NCBI GenBank assembly: GCA_025060615.1
Contig: JANXBS010000004.1
Location: forward strand, 108,634-172,633
From: Anaerolineae bacterium
Lineage (GTDB): Bacteria > Chloroflexota > Anaerolineae > DUEN01
Direction: 5' to 3'
Length of the DNA stretch: 64,000 nt
Shown: piece after piece, positions 400 to 10,033 of the stretch
How the letters are laid out: each line of letters starts with the position of its first letter
Position numbering within the stretch: the stretch's first letter is position 1
Program-made: the position numbers and the translations under genes
Notes under the pieces: generated by a model
Seen by the model: the letters and a program-made list of their open reading frames with translations, nothing else
Told to the model about the DNA's origin: nothing
The model's database searches: none

Positions 400-1413
400 C
401 TAAAACCCGCCACGAGCAGCGATGAAATCGAGCGCTTCCTGCTCATAGGGCATGAAGTTGGCACAGCCGTGACGGGTGACTACAATGGCACCACAGGCGT
501 TGCCCATGCGTGCCGCCTTGTACCAGTCCCAGCCGTGTAGATACCCATAGATGAACCCGCTGGCGAAGGCATCGCCGGCGCCAAGCACGTTGTATACTTC
601 TACCGGAAAAGCAGGGGCATGAATGACTTCTCCCGAGGTCAGATGTACCTGCGAGCCGCGCTCGCCGCATTTCATCACCAACGCCTGCGGACCATGAGAC
701 AAAAGCTTTGCCACAGCAGTGGCCGTGTCTCCAGCCACCTGAGCCCCGGAGACCTGTGAAGCGATCACGGACACTTGCTCGCGCCGGCTGAGCACCGCAG
801 CTTTGACTTCATCCTCCGTGCCTAGGGCGATATCCACCAATCGCAGCACGGAACGAATCACCACACCGAAAGCCCGCGGGTCATGCCACTGATCAGGCCG
901 GAAGTCGATGTCCAGGATGACCGTGGCTCCTGCGGCCTTCGCCTGTTCGGCGGCGAAGATGGTGGCGCTGCGGCTTGGCTCTTTGCTCAGCCCGGTGCCG
1001 GAGATGAGCAACACCCGGCTCTCGGCGACAGGCGCGGCTAGCACGTCATCAATCGTCAGCTCGATGTCGGCACAGTTGTCCCGATAGTAGACCAACGGAA
1101 AGCGATCAGGAGGCTCAATGCCGAGCACGACCGCGCTGGTGCGATGCCCTGGCTTGCGTGAGATGAAACGGATCTCCACTCCCTCCTTCTCTAGGAAATG
1201 CAGGATGAAATCCCCTACTGGATCCTCGCCCACGGCTGTCAGGACTGCAGAGCGTAGTCCCAACCGGCGCGTGCCCACACTGATGTTGGTAGGACAGCCG
1301 CCCACATATGCGGCAAAGCTCTTGATCTCTACGAAAGGCGCACCTACCTCATTGGCATACAGGTCAATGGACGAGCGCCCCATCGTCAACACATCATAAG
1401 TTTTAGCTGACAT
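400..1413 (-). CDS. iolC: 5-dehydro-2-deoxygluconokinase (IolC)
   Basis: A 337-residue PfkB-family sugar kinase that phosphorylates 5-dehydro-2-deoxy-D-gluconate in myo-inositol breakdown. Family marks are the N-terminal YVGGCPTNISVGTRRLG segment and the C-terminal NVLGAGDAFASGFIYG anion-hole/catalytic-Asp signature, the form typical of IolC rather than ribokinase. I place the start at the ATG at 1413, which has a GAGGTG ribosome binding site. A GTG at 1419 is also in frame but lies inside that site. The gene lies 32 bases after iolB on the same strand, so the two should be co-transcribed. IolC is a confident family call; the substrate is supported by the iolB neighbour. Confidence 0.9.
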   Translation of the reverse strand: MSAKTYDVLTMGRSSIDLYANEVGAPFVEIKSFAAYVGGCPTNISVGTRRLGLRSAVLTAVGEDPVGDFILHFLEKEGVEIRFISRKPGHRTSAVVLGIEPPDRFPLVYYRDNCADIELTIDDVLAAPVAESRVLLISGTGLSKEPSRSATIFAAEQAKAAGATVILDIDFRPDQWHDPRAFGVVIRSVLRLVDIALGTEDEVKAAVLSRREQVSVIASQVSGAQVAGDTATAVAKLLSHGPQALVMKCGERGSQVHLTSGEVIHAPAFPVEVYNVLGAGDAFASGFIYGYLHGWDWYKAARMGNACGAIVVTRHGCANFMPYEQEALDFIAARGGF

Positions 1414-1445
1414 AAGCACCTCATGAAGTCAACAATACCGGCCAA

Positions 1446-2348
1446 TTACCGCTGCACCGGGTAGATGGGCACGCGCGGATCTGGCGGCCCGTAAGTCTGT
1501 TTGACCCAGGCAAAACGCGGGTCGTCGCTGGCCGTGAGCGCCTGATCAGAGCCAGCGAGTACATTCAGATAATACGTTGTATACCCTGGCGGACTAACCA
1601 CCGGATGATAGCCCTCAGGCACCAGCACAACCTCATCAGGGCGCACCAACAGCAGCGCATCAATCGGATAACCGGCTTGATGCAATGGCGAGGTCTCGTC
1701 GGTGTAGATCCGTTGATAGGCGTATCCCTCCGGCCGGCTGCTTTTATAGTAATAAATTTCCTCTAGGTCAGCTTCGATCAAAGTACCATTGCCGTCCACG
1801 CGGCGCACGTCATGTTTGTGTGGCGGATAGCTGCTCCAGTTGCCACTGGGCGTATATACTTCCACCACCACCAAGCGATGACAATCAAATCCGGGAGGGA
1901 TGATATCGTTGATCTGGCGCGTGACGTTGTCGCCGCCGCGAATCTCGACGCGCACGTCAGCCGGCGTGATCAAGCGCGGGGGATGATCCTGATCCGTAGG
2001 GACCCATGCCACGCCGAATTCGCTATCGCGCACGGCGGTAACGGTAAACTCGACACGGCGAGGCAAATAAAGGGCATAAGGTAGCCCGGCGAATACATGC
2101 TCACGCTCGCCCACGCGTTCCCAACAGCCGCAACTAGCCGCGATATTGAGCGTCCCGCTGAAGACGACTAACGCCAGCTCATGGTCACCGGTCGCAAAAG
2201 ACCACGTTCTCCCAGCGGCTAACCGGCGCGATTGAAAGTGGATCAGCCGCCATCCCGCTCGCTGAGGGGTCACTTCCACGATCAGATCAGGATCACGGCC
2301 GGCGACCTCAGCCGGCCGCACGATCAAGTTCTCGTTAGTGTAACGCAT
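1446..2348 (-). CDS. iolB: 5-deoxy-glucuronate isomerase (IolB)
   Basis: A 300-residue double-cupin protein that converts 5-deoxy-D-glucuronate to 5-dehydro-2-deoxy-D-gluconate, the substrate of IolC. The metal site is visible as SSYPPHKHD followed by the EADLEEIYYYK strand, and a conserved QRIYTDE segment follows. The start ATG at 2348 is preceded by GGAGGAGG. It is the first gene of the minus-strand iolB-iolC unit and diverges from the LacI-type regulator; the shared 225-bp intergenic region carries two operator-like palindromes. The genes for the earlier classical steps (iolG, iolE, iolD) are not in this window. Confidence 0.93.
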   Translation of the reverse strand: MRYTNENLIVRPAEVAGRDPDLIVEVTPQRAGWRLIHFQSRRLAAGRTWSFATGDHELALVVFSGTLNIAASCGCWERVGEREHVFAGLPYALYLPRRVEFTVTAVRDSEFGVAWVPTDQDHPPRLITPADVRVEIRGGDNVTRQINDIIPPGFDCHRLVVVEVYTPSGNWSSYPPHKHDVRRVDGNGTLIEADLEEIYYYKSSRPEGYAYQRIYTDETSPLHQAGYPIDALLLVRPDEVVLVPEGYHPVVSPPGYTTYYLNVLAGSDQALTASDDPRFAWVKQTYGPPDPRVPIYPVQR

Positions 2349-2456: not shown

Positions 2457-2472
2457 CTGCACACGTGTGCAG
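2457..2472. promoter_or_regulatory. LacI-family operator, perfect 16-bp palindrome (O1)
   Basis: CTGCACACGTGTGCAG is its own reverse complement, with a central CG as is common for LacI-family operators. It lies between the divergent iolB and regulator genes. Assignment to the adjacent LacI protein is inference. Confidence 0.7.
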
Positions 2473-2494
2473 ACACTACCACAACTTATCCTGT

Positions 2495-2523
2495 TTGACA
2501 AAAAGTCAGAAATGCGTTATCGT
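2495..2523 (+). promoter_or_regulatory. Promoter of the LacI-type regulator
   Basis: TTGACA at 2495-2500 and TATCGT at 2518-2523, spaced by 17 bp. Operator O2 begins 3 bases downstream, over the predicted transcription start, as expected for autorepression. Confidence 0.55.
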
Positions 2524-2525
2524 TT

Positions 2526-2539
2526 TGCAAACGTGTGCA
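2526..2539. promoter_or_regulatory. LacI-family operator, 14-bp near-palindrome (O2)
   Basis: TGCAAACGTGTGCA matches the core of O1 with one asymmetric base. The centres of O1 and O2 are 68 bp apart, which would allow DNA looping by a tetrameric repressor. Confidence 0.65.
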
Positions 2540-2572
2540 CCATGCTTTCTCCATCTGGCCTGCAGGTGTGTC

Positions 2573-3598
2573 ATGGGCGTCTCTATCAAGGATATCGCCA
2601 AGGTGGCTGAGGTCTCCCATTCCACAGTTTCCCGTGCGCTACGCGACAGCCCCCTCATTAGCGACGAGACCAAAGCCCGTATCCAGCGAATCGCTCAGGA
2701 GATGGGATACTCCCCCAGCGCCATCGCTCGCAGCCTGGTGACCAAGCGTACCCAGACCCTCGGCCTGGTGGTGACCTCTATCGCCGACCCTTTTGTAGCT
2801 GAGATAGTCCGTGGCATCGAGGAGCGGGCGCTCGATGAGGGCTACAGCGTGATCCTCTGTCAATCACAGGCCGATCCTGAGCGAGAGATCGCTGCGGTGG
2901 AGATCTTGCGAGAGAAGCGAGTGGATGCCATCATCGTCACTGCGTCACGGGTAGGGAGCCTTTATCTCCCGCTGCTGGAGAAACTGGCCGTTCCCATCGT
3001 CCTCGTCAACAACCAACAAGAGGGCCGGTATGTCCACTCGGTAGGCACTGACAATGTACAGGGAGGGCGTTTAGCGGCTCATTACCTCTTGGCGTTGGGA
3101 CATACTCGGATTGGCTACATCACTGGGCCCGAATGGGCGGCGGCCAGCCGGCAACGACTTGAGGGAGCACGTCAGGCTCTGCAAGGCCAGGGGTTGGACT
3201 TGGATCCCGCGTTGATCGCGCAAGGAGATGGCCGTGCCGAGGGAGGAGAGGAAGCGATGGCCCACCTGCTGAGCCATCCCACCCCACCTACCGCCGTCTT
3301 CTGTTACAACGACATGACGGCCATCGGGGCCATGCGGGCAGTTCAACGGGCGGGATTGCGAGTGCCTGAAGATATCTCAATCATCGGCTACGATGATGTC
3401 GCCCTCGCGGCTTACGTGACTCCCCCGCTGACTACGATCAAGCAGCGCAAGTATGAAATGGGCTTCTGGGCTACAGAGATCGCCCTTGCCCTGCTGAACG
3501 GCGAAGAGACGATCGAGAACATCCTCGTCCCAGGAGAACTGGTGGTACGGGAGTCCTGCGCTTCACCTTCAGAGGAGTATCTCCTTCGCCACGCCTAA
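2573..3598 (+). CDS. LacI-family transcriptional regulator of the inositol locus
   Basis: A 341-residue LacI/GalR-type repressor. Residues 1-60 are the helix-turn-helix and hinge helix (SIKDIAKVAEVSHSTVSRAL, then GYSPSAIARSL); the rest is a periplasmic-binding-protein-like sensor (TLGLVVTSIADPFVAEIVRG, VFCYNDMTAIGAMRA, ISIIGYDDVALAAYVTPPLTT). The upstream frame is open to 2465, but that extension is not LacI-like and overlaps the promoter and O2. ATG 2573, preceded by AGGTG, gives the normal N-terminus. It diverges from iolBC and precedes iolM and the importer, so it probably senses an inositol compound; the ligand is inferred from context only. Confidence 0.9.
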   Translation: MGVSIKDIAKVAEVSHSTVSRALRDSPLISDETKARIQRIAQEMGYSPSAIARSLVTKRTQTLGLVVTSIADPFVAEIVRGIEERALDEGYSVILCQSQADPEREIAAVEILREKRVDAIIVTASRVGSLYLPLLEKLAVPIVLVNNQQEGRYVHSVGTDNVQGGRLAAHYLLALGHTRIGYITGPEWAAASRQRLEGARQALQGQGLDLDPALIAQGDGRAEGGEEAMAHLLSHPTPPTAVFCYNDMTAIGAMRAVQRAGLRVPEDISIIGYDDVALAAYVTPPLTTIKQRKYEMGFWATEIALALLNGEETIENILVPGELVVRESCASPSEEYLLRHA

Positions 3599-3831: not shown

Positions 3832-4989
3832 ATGAAAGCGCTAGTGCTTGACGCCCAATGGGATCCACGGCCAGACTATCCACTCTCGGACTGGGAGCGA
3901 GCAACAGGTAAGGCCATTACCGGTAGCTCGGTCTGGCGCTACCCTCGACTAGAGGTCCGAGAGGTGCCAGAACCTACCCCTAAGCCTGACCAAGTGCTCA
4001 TCCGGGTCAAAGCTTGCGGTGTCTGCGGCTCAGACATCCACTTCTACGAAACGGATGCGGACGGCTACATCCTCTACCCGGGTCTGACCAGGTTCCCTAC
4101 AACGACAGGTCATGAGTTCTCTGGAGAGATCGTCGAAGTGGGCTCCGAGGTTAAAGACCTGAAGGTTGGGGATATGGTGACCGCCGAGGAGATGATCTGG
4201 TGTGGACATTGCCTGCCATGCCGCAGCGGCTTTTTCAACCACTGCGCGAACCTGGAGGAGCTCGGTTTCACCATCCCTGGCGCCTTCGCCGAATACGTAG
4301 CCGTCGGCGCCAAGTATTGCTGGAAGCTAAACGCCCTCAGAGACCGTTATGGCGATGAGGAAACGGCTTATGAAGCCGGCGCGCTGGTGGAACCTTGCGG
4401 AGTAGCCTACAACGCCCTCTTCGTACGGGCCGGTGGTTTCCGCCCTGGGGCCTACGTGGTCGTCTACGGCGCCGGACCCATCGGCCTGGCCGTCATCGCC
4501 GAATGTCGAGCTGCCGGCGCGGCCAAGATCATTGCCTTCGAGGTCTCTAAACCACGACTAGAATTGGCCAGGAAGATGGGAGCTGATTACGCCTTCAACC
4601 CACGAGAGGTTGTCCCCCATGAGGTGGTTATGGAACTCACCGAGGGACAAGGGGCCGACCTACACGTAGAGGCGACAGGGATGGCGCATCTCACCGTGCC
4701 GGAAATGGAGAAATCCCTAGCTATTAACGGCAAAATCTGCCAGCTGGGACGGGGTGCCACGCGCGTCCCCATGTACCTGGAAACGCTGCAGGTCCGCCGT
4801 GGACAGCTTTTCGGCTCGCAGGGCCACAGTGGTGATGGCATCTTCTCCAGCGTCATCCGCATGATGGCCGCCGGGCTTATGGACATGACCCAGATCATCA
4901 CCGCTCGTTATGACTTGAACGGGGTCGTGGACGCGATCATCCGATCAGGAGACCGCGCCGATGGCAAGATCATGGTAAAGCCGGCTTAG
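3832..4989 (+). CDS. iolM: Zinc-dependent scyllo-inosose 3-dehydrogenase (IolM-like)
   Basis: A 385-residue medium-chain alcohol dehydrogenase. It shows the catalytic-zinc Cys (ACGVCGSD) and His-Glu (GHEFSGEIVEVG), the four-Cys structural zinc loop (CGHCLPCRSGFFNHC) and the NAD fold (VYGAGPIGLAV). From memory, the N-terminal pattern WDPRP...VWRYP...VREVPEP and the stretch GYILYPGL closely resemble Thermotoga maritima TM0412, which oxidises 2-keto-myo-inositol in that organism's alternative inositol pathway. The start is ATG 3832 after GAGG; an in-frame TTG at 3817 is less likely. It sits between the regulator and the importer. The dehydrogenase family is certain; the exact substrate is inferred from resemblance and context. 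Confidence 0.82.
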   Translation: MKALVLDAQWDPRPDYPLSDWERATGKAITGSSVWRYPRLEVREVPEPTPKPDQVLIRVKACGVCGSDIHFYETDADGYILYPGLTRFPTTTGHEFSGEIVEVGSEVKDLKVGDMVTAEEMIWCGHCLPCRSGFFNHCANLEELGFTIPGAFAEYVAVGAKYCWKLNALRDRYGDEETAYEAGALVEPCGVAYNALFVRAGGFRPGAYVVVYGAGPIGLAVIAECRAAGAAKIIAFEVSKPRLELARKMGADYAFNPREVVPHEVVMELTEGQGADLHVEATGMAHLTVPEMEKSLAINGKICQLGRGATRVPMYLETLQVRRGQLFGSQGHSGDGIFSSVIRMMAAGLMDMTQIITARYDLNGVVDAIIRSGDRADGKIMVKPA

Positions 4990-5043
4990 GAGCTGGCAGA
5001 TCAGTGATCAGCCCAATCATCCATGCCAGAGGGAGGGGTGCCC

Positions 5044-6045
5044 TTGACTTCAGCAGCGGCCGCGATCACGCGCTTCCGCCTGAGGCTGGCTGAATTCCCT
5101 CAGGCGGTGGTCATGCTCAGCTTTTTGATCATCTTCCTCTTCTTCGCCTTCGCCACAGAGAACTTTCTCACCCCTGTGGCCATCTCTAACATCCTGTCCT
5201 TCGGCAGCATCATGGGTATCGTTGTCGTGGGCGTGGCTATCCTGATGATCGCTGGCGAGTTCGATCTCTCAGTCGGGGCGAACTTCGCCATAGCCAGCTA
5301 TGTCTTCGCTTTGACGATGAACGCTGGCGTGCCACCACTTCCCGCTATGCTCTTCGCCGTGCTGGTAAGCGCGCTGCTAGGGGCGATGAACGGCCTAGTG
5401 GTGATCCGTTCAGGGATCCCCTCCTTCATCGCTACGCTGGGGACGATGCTGGCTTATCGTGGCATCGCCCGCGCCATCGGGGGTGGTGATTTCGCTAAGT
5501 ACACCCAGTCCAGGCCAATGCTGTTTGACGTACTCAACGGCGCTATCACCCCACTCAACGAACTCTATCAACCGGCCGCTAACTTTCGCGTCTCCATCCT
5601 CTGGTTCTTGCTCATCGCCGCAGTGATGTCCTTCGTGCTGATGCGCACTCCATTCGGCAACTGGGTCTTCGCTACTGGCGGCAACCCAAGCGCGGCGCTA
5701 GCCCAGGGCGTGCCCGTGAAGCGAGTGAAGCTGATCGCCTTTGTGCTGACCGGGCTGTTTACCGGTCTCGCCAGCGTCATGCAATTCGCCCACCGTACCA
5801 GCGTAGACCCGCTCCGAGGCGAGGGATGGGAACTGATCGCGGTGGCCGCTAGCGTGATCGGCGGTGTACGGCTCACTGGCGGCGTAGGTACCGTCTTCGG
5901 AGCGTGCGTGGGCGTCTTCCTGCTGCAAATGCTCGACCAGGGCCTAGGGCTGATGGGGGTGTCCATCCAGATCTTCCGGGCAGTGGCCGGCTTGATTCTG
6001 ATGCTCTCGGTAGTGGTCAACACGTATCTGAGCCGTTCCATCTGA
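5044..6045 (+). CDS. Sugar ABC transporter permease, RbsC family (first)
   Basis: An integral membrane protein of about 333 residues with 8-10 hydrophobic segments, of the CUT2 (ribose/inositol) importer type. The family motif [13 protein letters not shown] lies in the N-terminal half and the cytoplasmic ATPase-coupling stretch ([21 protein letters not shown]) in the C-terminal half. An ATG at 5023 is in frame but has no ribosome binding site, while TTG 5044 follows GGGAGGGG at the right distance, so I prefer it. A second, different RbsC-type permease is encoded after the binding protein, suggesting a heterodimeric channel. Substrate is probably inositol or a derivative, from the locus. Confidence 0.85.
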
Positions 6046-6211
6046 TGCAAGCCGAAAGGCAACTCCAGAAAAAAGTGCTCTCGAAACACAGGAGGCCTAG
6101 GGAATTCGAACGAATTTGATCCGGTCGGAGATTCGGCGGGCGGATCTGAGGCTGCTCCCCCCTTGATAAGGTGCCTGCCGATGAGTTAATCCAAGTTGAA
6201 GGAGGGCAAAA

Positions 6212-8140
6212 ATGAACGCCAAGAAGCTGCTGCTTCTATTAGGCTTGTGGACCGTTCTAAGCCTGATCTTGACGGCCTGCCCTGCTCCCACTCCAGTGGC
6301 CGTCGAGAAGGAAAAGGTGGTGGAGAAAGAAGCGCCCATCGAGGTTACCAAGGTGGTGGAGAAGCCGGTGCCAGCGGAATTCGGCCCCGACGTGGTGCCC
6401 AACTTGATCTTCGTCCAGCATGCCCTCTGCGCCTGGGACTCCTTCTGGTGCGTGGTGGAGGAGGGCATCCGCCGTGCCGCCGACGACATGAACGTGAACG
6501 TGACCATCCTGGGACCGGACAAGTTCGACCTAGAGAAGGTGGCCCAACTCATTGACCAGGCCGTGGCGGCTAAGCCCGACGGGCTGGCGGTGACCGTCAC
6601 CGACCCCGACCTCTTCCGCGAGCCCATCCAACGAGCCCTGGACGCCGGCATCCCGGTGGTGACCTACAACGCCGGCTCCGGCCCCATCGAGGACAAGATC
6701 GCCTACCTCACCTACCTGGGCCAGGATGAGTATCAGGGCGGCTACCAGGGCGGACTGCGGCTGGCAGCCCAAGGCGGCAAGAAGGGGGTGTGCATCAACC
6801 ACCAGGTGGGCCATGTGGGCCTGGACAAGCGCTGTCGAGGCTTCACCGATGCCCTGAAGGAGAAAGGCATCCCCGCTGAAGTCCTCGCTATCACCAACGA
6901 CCCTGCCGAATCGCAGACCATCATCAGCGACTACTACACCGCCAACCCCGACACCGATATCTTCCTCACCCTCGGCCCCAACGGCGCCAACCCCTTCTAT
7001 GCCTTCCTGGAGACGGCAGGGCTGAAGCCCGGCGATGTCATCCACGGCACCTTCGACCTCAGCCCAGAGATCATCGCCCGCATCAAGGACGGCACCACCC
7101 TCTTCGGCATCGACCAACAACCCTTCCTCCAAGGCTACGGCTCGGTGGCCATGCTGACGCTCGCCAAGCGCTATGGGATCCTACCAGCGCTGCCGGTGAC
7201 AGCTACAGGGCCCGGGTTTGTAGACGTCAGCAATGTGGACTTCACTGTGGACCCAAACCGGCCAGTCAATCTCTTCTTCGTCCAGCATGCCCTCTGCGCC
7301 TGGGACTCCTTCTGGTGCGTGGTGGAGGAGGGCATCCGCCGTGCCGCCGACGACATGAACGTGAACGTGACCATCCTGGGACCGGACAAGTTCGACCTAG
7401 AGAAGGTGGCCCAACTCATTGACCAGGCCGTGGCGGCTAAGCCCGACGGGCTGGCGGTGACCGTCACCGACCCCGACCTCTTCCGCGAGCCCATCCAACG
7501 AGCCCTGGACGCCGGCATCCCCGTGGTGGCCTACAACGCCGGCTCCGGCCCCATCGAGGACAAGATCGCCTACCTCACCTACCTGGGCCAGGATGAGTAT
7601 CAAGGCGGCTACCAGGGCGGACTGCGGCTGGCAGCCCAAGGCGGCAAGAAGGGGGTGTGCATCAACCACCAGGTGGGCCATGTGGGCCTGGACAAGCGCT
7701 GTCGAGGCTTCACCGATGCCCTGAAGGAGAAAGGCATCCCCGCTGAAGTCCTCGCTATCACCAACGACCCTGCCGAATCGCAGACCATCATCAGCGACTA
7801 CTACACCGCCAACCCCGACACCGATATCTTCCTCACCCTCGGCCCCAACGGCGCCAACCCCTTCTATGCCTTCCTGGAGACGGCAGGGCTGAAGCCCGGC
7901 GATGTCATCCACGGCACCTTCGACCTCAGCCCAGAGATCATCGCCCGCATCAAGGACGGCACCACCCTCTTCGGCATCGACCAACAACCCTTCCTCCAAG
8001 GCTACGGCTCAGTGCAGGCATTGATGCTCAAAGTACGCTACGGCATCAGCCCAGCGTTGCCGGTGACGCCCACTGGGCCCGGCTTCGTGGATGCGAGCAA
8101 CGTGGAGGTCGTAGAGGCGTTAGCCGGCAAATATCGGTAA
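6212..8140 (+). CDS. Lipoprotein sugar-binding protein with two tandem binding domains
   Basis: A 642-residue periplasmic-binding-protein-like lipoprotein, about twice the family length. The signal peptide ends in a lipobox (LILTAC, Cys23), followed by a charged, Val/Glu/Lys-rich linker. Residues about 65-352 and 354-642 are two complete type-I binding domains with a 289-residue period and only one residue difference in the core (Thr versus Ala after IPVV). Each has HALCAWDSFWCVVEEG, a Cys pair (KGVCINHQ...LDKRC) and the hinge segment FLTLGPNGANPFYA. Start ATG with AAGGAGGG. The two domains could deliver ligand to one channel as in two-domain glutamine importers; collapse or expansion during assembly is the alternative to exclude. 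Confidence 0.85.
   Translation: MNAKKLLLLLGLWTVLSLILTACPAPTPVAVEKEKVVEKEAPIEVTKVVEKPVPAEFGPDVVPNLIFVQHALCAWDSFWCVVEEGIRRAADDMNVNVTILGPDKFDLEKVAQLIDQAVAAKPDGLAVTVTDPDLFREPIQRALDAGIPVVTYNAGSGPIEDKIAYLTYLGQDEYQGGYQGGLRLAAQGGKKGVCINHQVGHVGLDKRCRGFTDALKEKGIPAEVLAITNDPAESQTIISDYYTANPDTDIFLTLGPNGANPFYAFLETAGLKPGDVIHGTFDLSPEIIARIKDGTTLFGIDQQPFLQGYGSVAMLTLAKRYGILPALPVTATGPGFVDVSNVDFTVDPNRPVNLFFVQHALCAWDSFWCVVEEGIRRAADDMNVNVTILGPDKFDLEKVAQLIDQAVAAKPDGLAVTVTDPDLFREPIQRALDAGIPVVAYNAGSGPIEDKIAYLTYLGQDEYQGGYQGGLRLAAQGGKKGVCINHQVGHVGLDKRCRGFTDALKEKGIPAEVLAITNDPAESQTIISDYYTANPDTDIFLTLGPNGANPFYAFLETAGLKPGDVIHGTFDLSPEIIARIKDGTTLFGIDQQPFLQGYGSVQALMLKVRYGISPALPVTPTGPGFVDASNVEVVEALAGKYR
6408..7147 (+). repeat. 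Tandem duplication, copy A (740 bp)
   Basis: Matches copy B (7275-8014) at an offset of 867 bp. I find only four differences in the aligned stretch: 6655, 6662 and 6736 internally, and 7144 close to its end. The sequences flanking the near-identical core differ much more. Confidence 0.93.
7275..8014 (+). repeat. Tandem duplication, copy B (740 bp)
   Basis: Second copy of the binding-domain core. Its left flank (7148-7274) and the tail after it (8015-8137) encode homologous but clearly diverged C-terminal ends (RYGILPALPVTATGPGFVD versus RYGISPALPVTPTGPGFVD). Confidence 0.93.
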
Positions 8141-8154
8141 AGCAGAAGCCCAGG

Positions 8155-8187
8155 GAGTGGGAGGCAGAGGTGTTCTGCCTCCCACTC
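8155..8187 (+). promoter_or_regulatory. Perfect 14-bp hairpin after the binding-protein gene
   Basis: GAGTGGGAGGCAGA (8155-8168) pairs with 8174-8187 around the loop GGTGT, with no U-run after it. Hairpins in this position often raise the level of binding-protein mRNA over the downstream permease by protecting 3' ends or partly terminating transcription; that role is inferred here. Confidence 0.6.
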
Positions 8188-8255: not shown

Positions 8256-9254
8256 ATGGGTACAGTAGCCATACGGCGAGCAGCCCAGCGACATCTGAGA
8301 TTCGAATCGCCGATCGCAGGACCATTGATCACCCTGCTGACCGTTTTTATCCTCTTCTCGCTCTTGGTCCCGCAATTCCTCACCATGCGGTCCATCTCAG
8401 GCATCGTCAACGCGGCCACATTGAGTGGAGTAGTCACCATCGGTGTCACTTTGCTGATGATCGCTGGGGAATTCGACCTCTCCGTGGGCTCGCTGATGGC
8501 CATCGGCGCCTTTCTGTATGGCTTTAACATAGTGAATGGCGGCAACCCACTGTGGGCACTGTTTCTGGGCCTGCTGATCCCTGCACTGCTAGGGGCTCTT
8601 AACGGCCTGATCCTCATCCGGACCGGCATCCCTTCCTTCATTATAACCTTGGGCACGCAGTTTATCTATCGGGGAGCCCTCTGGGTATATTCGACAGGTC
8701 AGATGATCCAGACCGTCGAACACATCCCCCTTTATGACATCTTGAACGGCCGACTAGGCTTTCTCGCCGATGCAGTGGAAGAGGCCAATTTTCGCACTGC
8801 TGCTCTGTGGCTTTTGGGGCTGGTCTTACTCTTCCAGTACCTATTGACCCGCACACGGTTTGGCAATCACGTTTTCGCCACCGGAGGTAACGTGAGCGCA
8901 GCAGCTGCGCAGGGCGTCAATACAAAGCGAGTCAAGCTGATCTGTTTCGTTCTCTCAGGATTGCTGGCCGGCTTCGCAGGCATTCTACTGTTCAGTCAGT
9001 ACAAGACAGCTCGGATCGCTACTGGCGCCGGAGAGGAGCTCAAGGCTATTGCCTCAGCGGTGGTAGGCGGCACTCTGCTGAGTGGAGGATCGGGGAGCAT
9101 CATCGGCGCGCTTCTGGGTGTATTGACTATTAGCACGTTGCGCACTGGTGTAGTGCTGGCAGACCTAGTTCCCGCTGACAACTTTGAGGCCATCGTGGGA
9201 GTTACCATCGTAGGAGCGGCTATCTTCAACAACTGGATTCGCAGCCGTTCCTAA
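8256..9254 (+). CDS. Sugar ABC transporter permease, RbsC family (second)
   Basis: A 332-residue CUT2-type permease related to, but not a copy of, the one at 5044-6045. Shared marks are [27 protein letters not shown] and FATGGNVSAAAAQGVNTKRVK. The ATG at 8256 follows GGAGG by 8 bases. The in-frame extension back to 8157 runs through the intergenic hairpin and is not part of the protein. The gene ends 17 bases before the ATPase gene, so translation is probably coupled. With the first permease it should form the membrane channel of the locus's importer. Confidence 0.87.
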   Translation: MGTVAIRRAAQRHLRFESPIAGPLITLLTVFILFSLLVPQFLTMRSISGIVNAATLSGVVTIGVTLLMIAGEFDLSVGSLMAIGAFLYGFNIVNGGNPLWALFLGLLIPALLGALNGLILIRTGIPSFIITLGTQFIYRGALWVYSTGQMIQTVEHIPLYDILNGRLGFLADAVEEANFRTAALWLLGLVLLFQYLLTRTRFGNHVFATGGNVSAAAAQGVNTKRVKLICFVLSGLLAGFAGILLFSQYKTARIATGAGEELKAIASAVVGGTLLSGGSGSIIGALLGVLTISTLRTGVVLADLVPADNFEAIVGVTIVGAAIFNNWIRSRS

Positions 9255-9271: not shown

Positions 9272-10033
9272 ATGGGCAGTAACGAGCAGGATACGTCCAT
9301 CGTTCATATGGAGAATATCGTCAAGCGGTTCGGCACGGTGGTCGCATTGGACGGCGTGGATTTCACCGTAGGCCGGCAAGAGATCATGGCGCTTTTAGGG
9401 GACAATGGAGCTGGTAAATCCACGTTGATCAAGATCCTGATGGGGGTACTCACACCAGATAGTGGACGGATTTACTTCGAGGGTCAGCCGGTTCAGATCC
9501 GTTCACCACGTGAAGCCCGCGCCTTGGGGATCGAAGCCTGTTATCAAGACCTGGCCCTGGTCAATCAGATGAGCATCATGCGCAACTTCTTCCTGGGGCG
9601 AGAAATGGTACGCCGTTTCGGCCCGATCCGCTGGCTTGATATGCAGAGGATGAAGACGCTAACCTATTCGGCGTTACGGGACATCGGTATTGAGATCCGT
9701 TCCGCCTCAGAGAAAGTGGAAAAGCTCTCCGGCGGCGAACGGCAGTCCATCGCCATCGGGCGAGCTTTGCACTTTGGAGCTAAGCTTCTGATCCTGGATG
9801 AGCCCACCTCGGCTCTCTCGGTAGCAGAGACGCGCAAGGTGCTTACATATGTGCTCAACGCTAGAGAGCGAGGGTTGTCAGTGATCTTCATCACCCACAA
9901 CGTCCATCACGTTTACCAGGTAGCCGATCGCTACACGATCCTCCGGCATGGGAAGCGAGTGGGTACTTATCGCCGGGGCGAGCTCACAGAGGAGGATATC
10001 GCCGATCTGATCACGGGGGTGCGGGAACGCTAA
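9272..10033 (+). CDS. Sugar ABC transporter ATP-binding protein (single-domain RbsA type)
   Basis: A 253-residue ATPase with Walker A (GDNGAGKST), Q-loop (CYQDLALV), signature (KLSGGERQSIAIGRAL), Walker B (LLILDEPTSALS) and the switch His (FITHN). Many RbsA-type ATPases carry two nucleotide-binding domains in about 500 residues; this one has only one, so the working transporter needs a dimer. The start ATG has GGGAGATAGGAG upstream. It is the last gene of the import operon and is followed by an independent tRNA promoter. Confidence 0.9.
   Translation: MGSNEQDTSIVHMENIVKRFGTVVALDGVDFTVGRQEIMALLGDNGAGKSTLIKILMGVLTPDSGRIYFEGQPVQIRSPREARALGIEACYQDLALVNQMSIMRNFFLGREMVRRFGPIRWLDMQRMKTLTYSALRDIGIEIRSASEKVEKLSGGERQSIAIGRALHFGAKLLILDEPTSALSVAETRKVLTYVLNARERGLSVIFITHNVHHVYQVADRYTILRHGKRVGTYRRGELTEEDIADLITGVRER

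Follow-up and report, generated by a model that had tools for sequence, protein, structure and literature searches.

The binding protein encoded in this window (the whole 64-kb stretch of DNA analyzed here) raises the question of how a single gene comes to carry two binding domains that are almost identical over most of their length and clearly different at their ends. The open reading frame (6212..8140, + strand) encodes a predicted two-domain substrate-binding lipoprotein of 642 aa, and a ribosome-binding site (AGGAGG; 6200..6205, +; read by eye) precedes it. Its first section (6212..6391, +) specifies a signal peptide, a lipobox judged by eye that ends at Cys23 (LTAC) and a low-confidence spacer; A22 and C23 are nearly invariant in the 20 aligned proteins, and residues 20-54 of the AlphaFold2 model have pLDDT values under 50. 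Binding domain 1 (residues 61-350; 6392..7261, +) and binding domain 2 (residues 351-642; 7262..8137, +) follow, both assigned from Peripla_BP_4, the AlphaFold2 model and per-domain profile scores. The original prediction that the gene encodes two binding domains is borne out by Peripla_BP_4, which matches the protein in two stretches (302.5 bits vs a gathering score of 35.1), and by the two-domain model (mean pLDDT 88.4), whose top Foldseek matches are RbsB-like proteins. CUT2-type (RbsB-like) binding proteins usually have one binding domain per polypeptide. The window protein belongs with them by its Peripla_BP_4 and RbsB-like matches, but holds two domains against this norm.

The gene lies between those for permease A (5023..6045, +) and permease B (8256..9254, +; ATG at 8256, in a frame that opens at 8157), both assigned from BPD_transp_2 and from their conserved place in relatives. 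Permease B is followed by a gene encoding a 253 aa ATPase (ABC_tran; 9272..10033, +). CUT2 (RbsA-type) ATPases consist of two fused ABC cassettes and are about 500 aa long. Thus, the importer resembles CUT2 systems in the BPD_transp_2 domains of both permeases but not in its ATPase, which matches only the first half of the ~500-aa CUT2 ATPase models; a single-cassette ATPase is here paired with two different permeases. On the other side of permease A we identified genes encoding an IolM-type scyllo-inosose 3-dehydrogenase (3832..4989, +; NF041097, 562 bits vs a cut-off of 450), a LacI-family regulator (2465..3598, +; LacI and Peripla_BP_3) and, on the - strand, IolB (5-deoxy-glucuronate isomerase; 1446..2348; TIGR04378, over cut-off) and IolC (5-dehydro-2-deoxygluconokinase; 400..1419; TIGR04382, over cut-off). 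On the same contig, IolG, MMSDH and IolD are encoded a short distance upstream of the window. Also just upstream (contig C4) is a low-complexity tandem repeat frame that runs into N's (L128:11917-12759).

By these family assignments the binding protein sits in an inositol catabolic cluster, which makes an inositol its likely ligand. The sugar-binding function originally proposed can be narrowed in this sense: an inositol is more likely than a generic sugar, given the cluster and the closest solved structure to the domains, 4ru1 (34% identity), which we take to be a myo-inositol complex. Among family models, NF052284 (rhizopine SBP) comes closest. The domains score 255.5 and 255.1 on it against a cut-off of 420, and the whole protein reaches 505 only through the summing of its two domains; we therefore do not place the protein in this family.

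The two copies are offset by 867 bp. Their homogenized cores (copy 1, 6408..7147; copy 2, 7275..8014; both +) differ at 4 of 740 positions, 6655, 6662, 6736 and 7144, and include identical runs of 407 and 247 bp. The coordinates and the three internal differences given in the original prediction hold, and 7144 is an additional mismatch four bases from the right edge of the core. Only one mismatch, in the codon at 6662, changes an amino acid (Thr/Ala). Beyond the right edge, the tail of domain 1, which continues into the inter-domain linker (7148..7261, +), and the tail of domain 2, which continues into a C-terminal helix seen in the AlphaFold2 model (8015..8137, +), are not homogenized, with 33 mismatches in 95 positions (7148-7242 vs 8015-8109). 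Divergent homologous tails had been proposed on both sides, and this is correct for the right side. On the left, copy identity begins at the domain start, and the flanks (16 mismatches in 28 positions) compare the spacer before domain 1 with the linker before domain 2, so there is no homologous tail. No other direct repeat of at least 80 bp was reported in the 64-kb window.

Part of the contrast between core and tail reflects protein constraint, and at the protein level (pN) tails are more diverged than cores in all 21 complete two-domain proteins compared below. Protein constraint does not account for the mosaic in the window, because synonymous sites show it too: pS is 0.028 in the core (5.0 of 179.0 sites) and 0.611 in the tail (18.3 of 30.0 sites).

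The architecture had been described as unusual for CUT2 sugar systems, and this requires correction, since it recurs in 20 other named genomes. Among 396 genomes of the class, 47 have a match at E <= 1e-60; counting the window's, these matches include 12 complete two-domain genes, and G066 encodes a further, more distant one (43% identical). Scanning the genomes of named species gave 48 loci. Complete two-domain genes occur in 20 other MAGs (L080-L098, L100), pieces cut by contig ends at seven loci (L099, L101, L108, L107, L111, L113 and L127, where L101 and L108 belong to one genome), close single-domain genes at five (L102-L106) and a short frame at one (L114); the other 15 are more distant proteins (36-43% identity), each with a single matching domain. 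The 20 MAGs are labeled as Chloroflexota groups except for one, L085, an Armatimonadetes-labeled record whose two-domain gene lies amid Chloroflexota sequences, either through transfer or because the bin is mislabeled. The gene order permease A, binding protein, permease B, ATPase is found in 15 of the 20 and in all five close single-domain genes. A contig end interrupts this order in L089, L094, L096 and L100, and L081 has permease A behind the ATPase. In one relative (L083:3271-6108) the two inositol-type domains are preceded, in the same protein, by a third binding domain of a different kind (28% alike).

Tandem binding proteins of other kinds also occur in the class. Two nearly identical domains are found in L063, L064, L066 and L070 and moderately alike ones in L065 and L067; different domains are fused in L060, L061, L062, L068 and L130. 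The last of these is from the window's own genome (contig C24), a 732-aa fusion of two different sugar-binding domains that are 36% alike. L066, the same gene as L132, is ribose-like, its units are identical over most of their length, and the array leaves the contig end, so that more than two units are possible. In a Peripla_BP_4 census of 13 genomes of the class, six frames, spread over 3 of the genomes, had two matches each.

For phylogenetic analysis, we split the domains of 21 complete two-domain proteins (the window's and the 20 others) and aligned them by codon. Genes cut by contig ends were excluded from all trees, and G066, part of an earlier analysis of 12 proteins, is absent from the 21-protein trees. 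In the tail tree (114 nt), the 21 first domains and the 21 second domains lie on opposite sides of one branch (support 99/92), and the five single-domain proteins fall on the second-domain side. This split by position argues that the duplication behind the two-domain protein is ancestral. By plain identity, every first-domain tail is nearer to some other first-domain tail than to its own second-domain tail (21 of 21, a maximum over 20 others and so biased upward); the window's own tail pairing, taken singly, is not rejected on these 114 nt (p-AU 0.097).

The cores give a different picture. In the core tree the first-domain state needs 14 changes, and forcing a first-domain clade costs 1600 log-likelihood units and is rejected (p-AU 4e-5). 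In 11 of 21 proteins (the window, L080-L086, L088, L091 and L100) the protein's own two domains form a sister pair, L087 and L097 have no settled pairing, and the cores of L090, L093, L095, L096, L089, L092, L094 and L098 group by domain position or fail to pair. Measured by plain identity, the first-domain core is closest to its own second-domain core, not to any other first-domain core, in 12 of 21. Own paralogs are thus closer than orthologs, synonymous sites included, as in concerted evolution, except in 9 of the 21 proteins. With tails split by position and cores paired within the protein in 11 of 21, the original prediction of an older duplication followed by gene conversion of the core is well supported.

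An initial run test included the tails, which are able alone to give significance, and it was redone on the core only for all 21 proteins. With all polymorphic sites, P is 0.0003 for L080, L081, L083 and L100 and 0.014 for the window. With third positions, P is 0.004 or below in 4 of 21 (L080, L081, L083 and L088) and 0.0087 for L100; the window does not reach significance (P 0.125), as its copies match at nearly every site. A comparison of core and tail divergence in relatives had been put forward as a check on the conversion model. Core and tail do have similar synonymous divergence in some relatives, for example L093, L096 and L098, but these are relatives that were not recently homogenized, as the model predicts.

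Could the copies instead be alike simply because they are young, each lineage having duplicated its domain independently and recently? We consider this improbable. A fresh duplication would copy the tail as well, and the tails of the inositol proteins separate first from second domains in 21 of 21; a single recent duplication is likewise ruled out by the tail tree. In the earlier set of 12, the end regions reject the grouping of a protein's own two domains for 8 of the 10 proteins tested. The exceptions are G239 (p 0.138) and the window, whose pair is already united on the end regions because its N-terminal end is converted. Independent duplication does fit the ribose-like binding proteins of the class, where units within a gene neighbor each other in the core tree in 8 of 8 multi-unit genes and the tail tree has no split by position (L139, L152, L153 and L156, whose rows are partial or very distant, were in the earlier analysis of this family and are left out of its later trees). 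There, independent duplication is the simpler reading, the tandem units look like independent duplications, and we do not count the family as a second case of concerted evolution.

A short-read assembly artefact, in which the assembler doubled a single domain or wrongly merged two diverged ones, also seems quite improbable for the inositol proteins. It draws some support from the identical stretches of 407 and 247 bp, which are longer than short reads, from the two-domain genes broken at contig ends at the seven loci named above, and from N's near the window, which suggest a scaffold gap and short-read assembly. Against it, the same architecture is found in 20 other MAGs, homogenized to graded degrees, and the window copies are flanked by tails of the right type and retain three internal differences. 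Least credible, and in our view very improbable, is that strong purifying selection keeps the two binding sites identical without recombination. Pocket residues are indeed identical, with one exception, in five proteins that lack clear recent conversion (L090, L093, L095, L096 and L097), and many residues are invariant in both domains across proteins. However, the window cores differ at so few synonymous sites (5.0 of 179.0), against a pS of 0.37 between the window and the nearest other genome's first-domain core, that this reading is refuted for the window and for the other homogenized proteins. The selection for identical sites that was originally suggested thus fails by itself; it acts as well, given the five proteins that keep their pocket, and purifying selection does explain these five.

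We infer that the homogenization represents concerted evolution with intragenic recombination as its agent, restricted to the part of the gene that holds the predicted pocket; selection at the protein level cannot by itself produce synonymous sites that are so nearly identical. The most recent event in the window would be young, and its direction can be suggested at one diagnostic position, where other proteins have Thr in first domains (20 of 20) and Val in second domains (20 of 20). The window has Val in both, so the sequence of domain 2 probably overwrote that of domain 1 there. The same pattern is expected from gene conversion and from cycles of unequal crossing-over. The single-domain relatives L102 and L103 are nested inside the two-domain tree and combine a second-domain-type tail with the first-domain-type Thr at the diagnostic position. 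They fit the expected product of a deletion by recombination between the copies, a pattern that would also result if an assembler collapsed the repeat.

To locate the pocket, we transferred via L141 the contact positions that we take to be those of the E. coli ribose-binding protein; F164, which maps poorly, was left out. All of the positions used lie inside the core, and the tail begins about 10 residues past the last one (Q302/Q591). Predicted pocket residues are identical in both domains of the window protein, and in the 17 proteins outside one clade the only differences between domains are in L084 (Trp/Phe) and L097 (Ala/Ser). That clade (L089, L092, L094 and L098) has unhomogenized cores (core pS 0.63-0.80), and its second domains carry N153 to Asp, Q302 to Ala, F78 to Tyr and W75 to Tyr (window numbering) and are also altered at D172, E173 and Q307. 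Outside these second domains, N153, Q302, W75, D172, E173 and Q307 are invariant, both in all 34 domains of the 17 remaining proteins and in the clade's four first domains. The pocket change is one evolutionary event, and the link between loss of homogenization and a new pocket therefore rests on a single case. Tentatively, conversion may lock both sites identical, and this lock may have opened in one Anaerolineae clade, turning a doubled receptor into one with predicted dual specificity. Behind the diverged two-domain gene of L089, the contig breaks off within a second binding-protein gene (L089:7055-7555), whose N-terminus is of the first-domain type.

The two-domain architecture, the mosaic, the shared ancestry of the tails, the lineage-specific homogenization and the conserved operon are seen directly in these genomes. 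Very probably they reflect an ancestral tandem duplication and repeated, lineage-specific homogenization of the core with the tails kept distinct, in an inositol importer protein with twin sites. The lipid-anchored two-domain protein would have arisen when one domain was duplicated in tandem in the ancestor of an inositol importer of Chloroflexota (Anaerolineae-type). Time and again, and independently in many lineages, intragenic homologous recombination (gene conversion or unequal crossing-over) would then have copied one core over the other. The C-terminal tails would remain distinct, one running into the linker and the other forming the protein's C-terminus, presumably through selection against conversion through them. 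Two near-identical inositol sites per lipid anchor could feed one importer (permease A, permease B and the ATPase) and place more loaded domains locally near the permease, and the benefit may thus be doubled capture per anchor.

The mosaic indicates that recombination can work on a portion of a gene and leave separate domain identities in the remainder. Moreover, these proteins offer a natural experiment on the reason for having several binding domains in one importer: next to the same permeases and ATPase, orthologs occur in four states (homogenized, unhomogenized but identical, diverged and single-domain). Assays of binding and transport across the four states could separate dosage from specificity as the benefit.

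In OpuA of Lactococcus lactis the two binding domains come from two permease subunits, unlike the one tandem polypeptide here. OpuA is like the window system in having two binding domains per transporter for one ligand, and cooperativity in transport between them is reported (PMC11065425). GlnPQ (L. lactis) is closer in layout, with two tandem domains in one polypeptide serving one importer; these bind largely independently and deliver to one translocator, but they are part of the permease polypeptide and do not share the same specificity and affinity (PMC8025302). In contrast, the window protein is encoded by a separate lipoprotein gene, is homogenized, has predicted identical sites and serves a CUT2-like importer. 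The clade with the changed second pocket (L089, L092, L094 and L098) is nearer to GlnPQ than the other proteins are, and GlnPQ-like tandem domains with different ligands might arise through the loss of such a lock. In prokaryotic duplicates, concerted evolution of full-length genes is recurrent and long-lasting (PMC6053082). As in the window copies, paralogs within a genome are more alike than orthologs, synonymous sites included, and the pattern recurs across lineages; that survey leaves partial-sequence cases to future work, whereas here domains within a gene are homogenized and their tails are not. The terms 'ABC transporter' and 'substrate-binding' are absent from the main text of PMC6053082, and in the open-licence literature searched we found no report of partial, domain-level, recurrent homogenization in an importer's binding protein. 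Tandem binding domains and concerted evolution are each known, and what looks new is their partial, recurrent, domain-level combination, together with a clade that escaped it.
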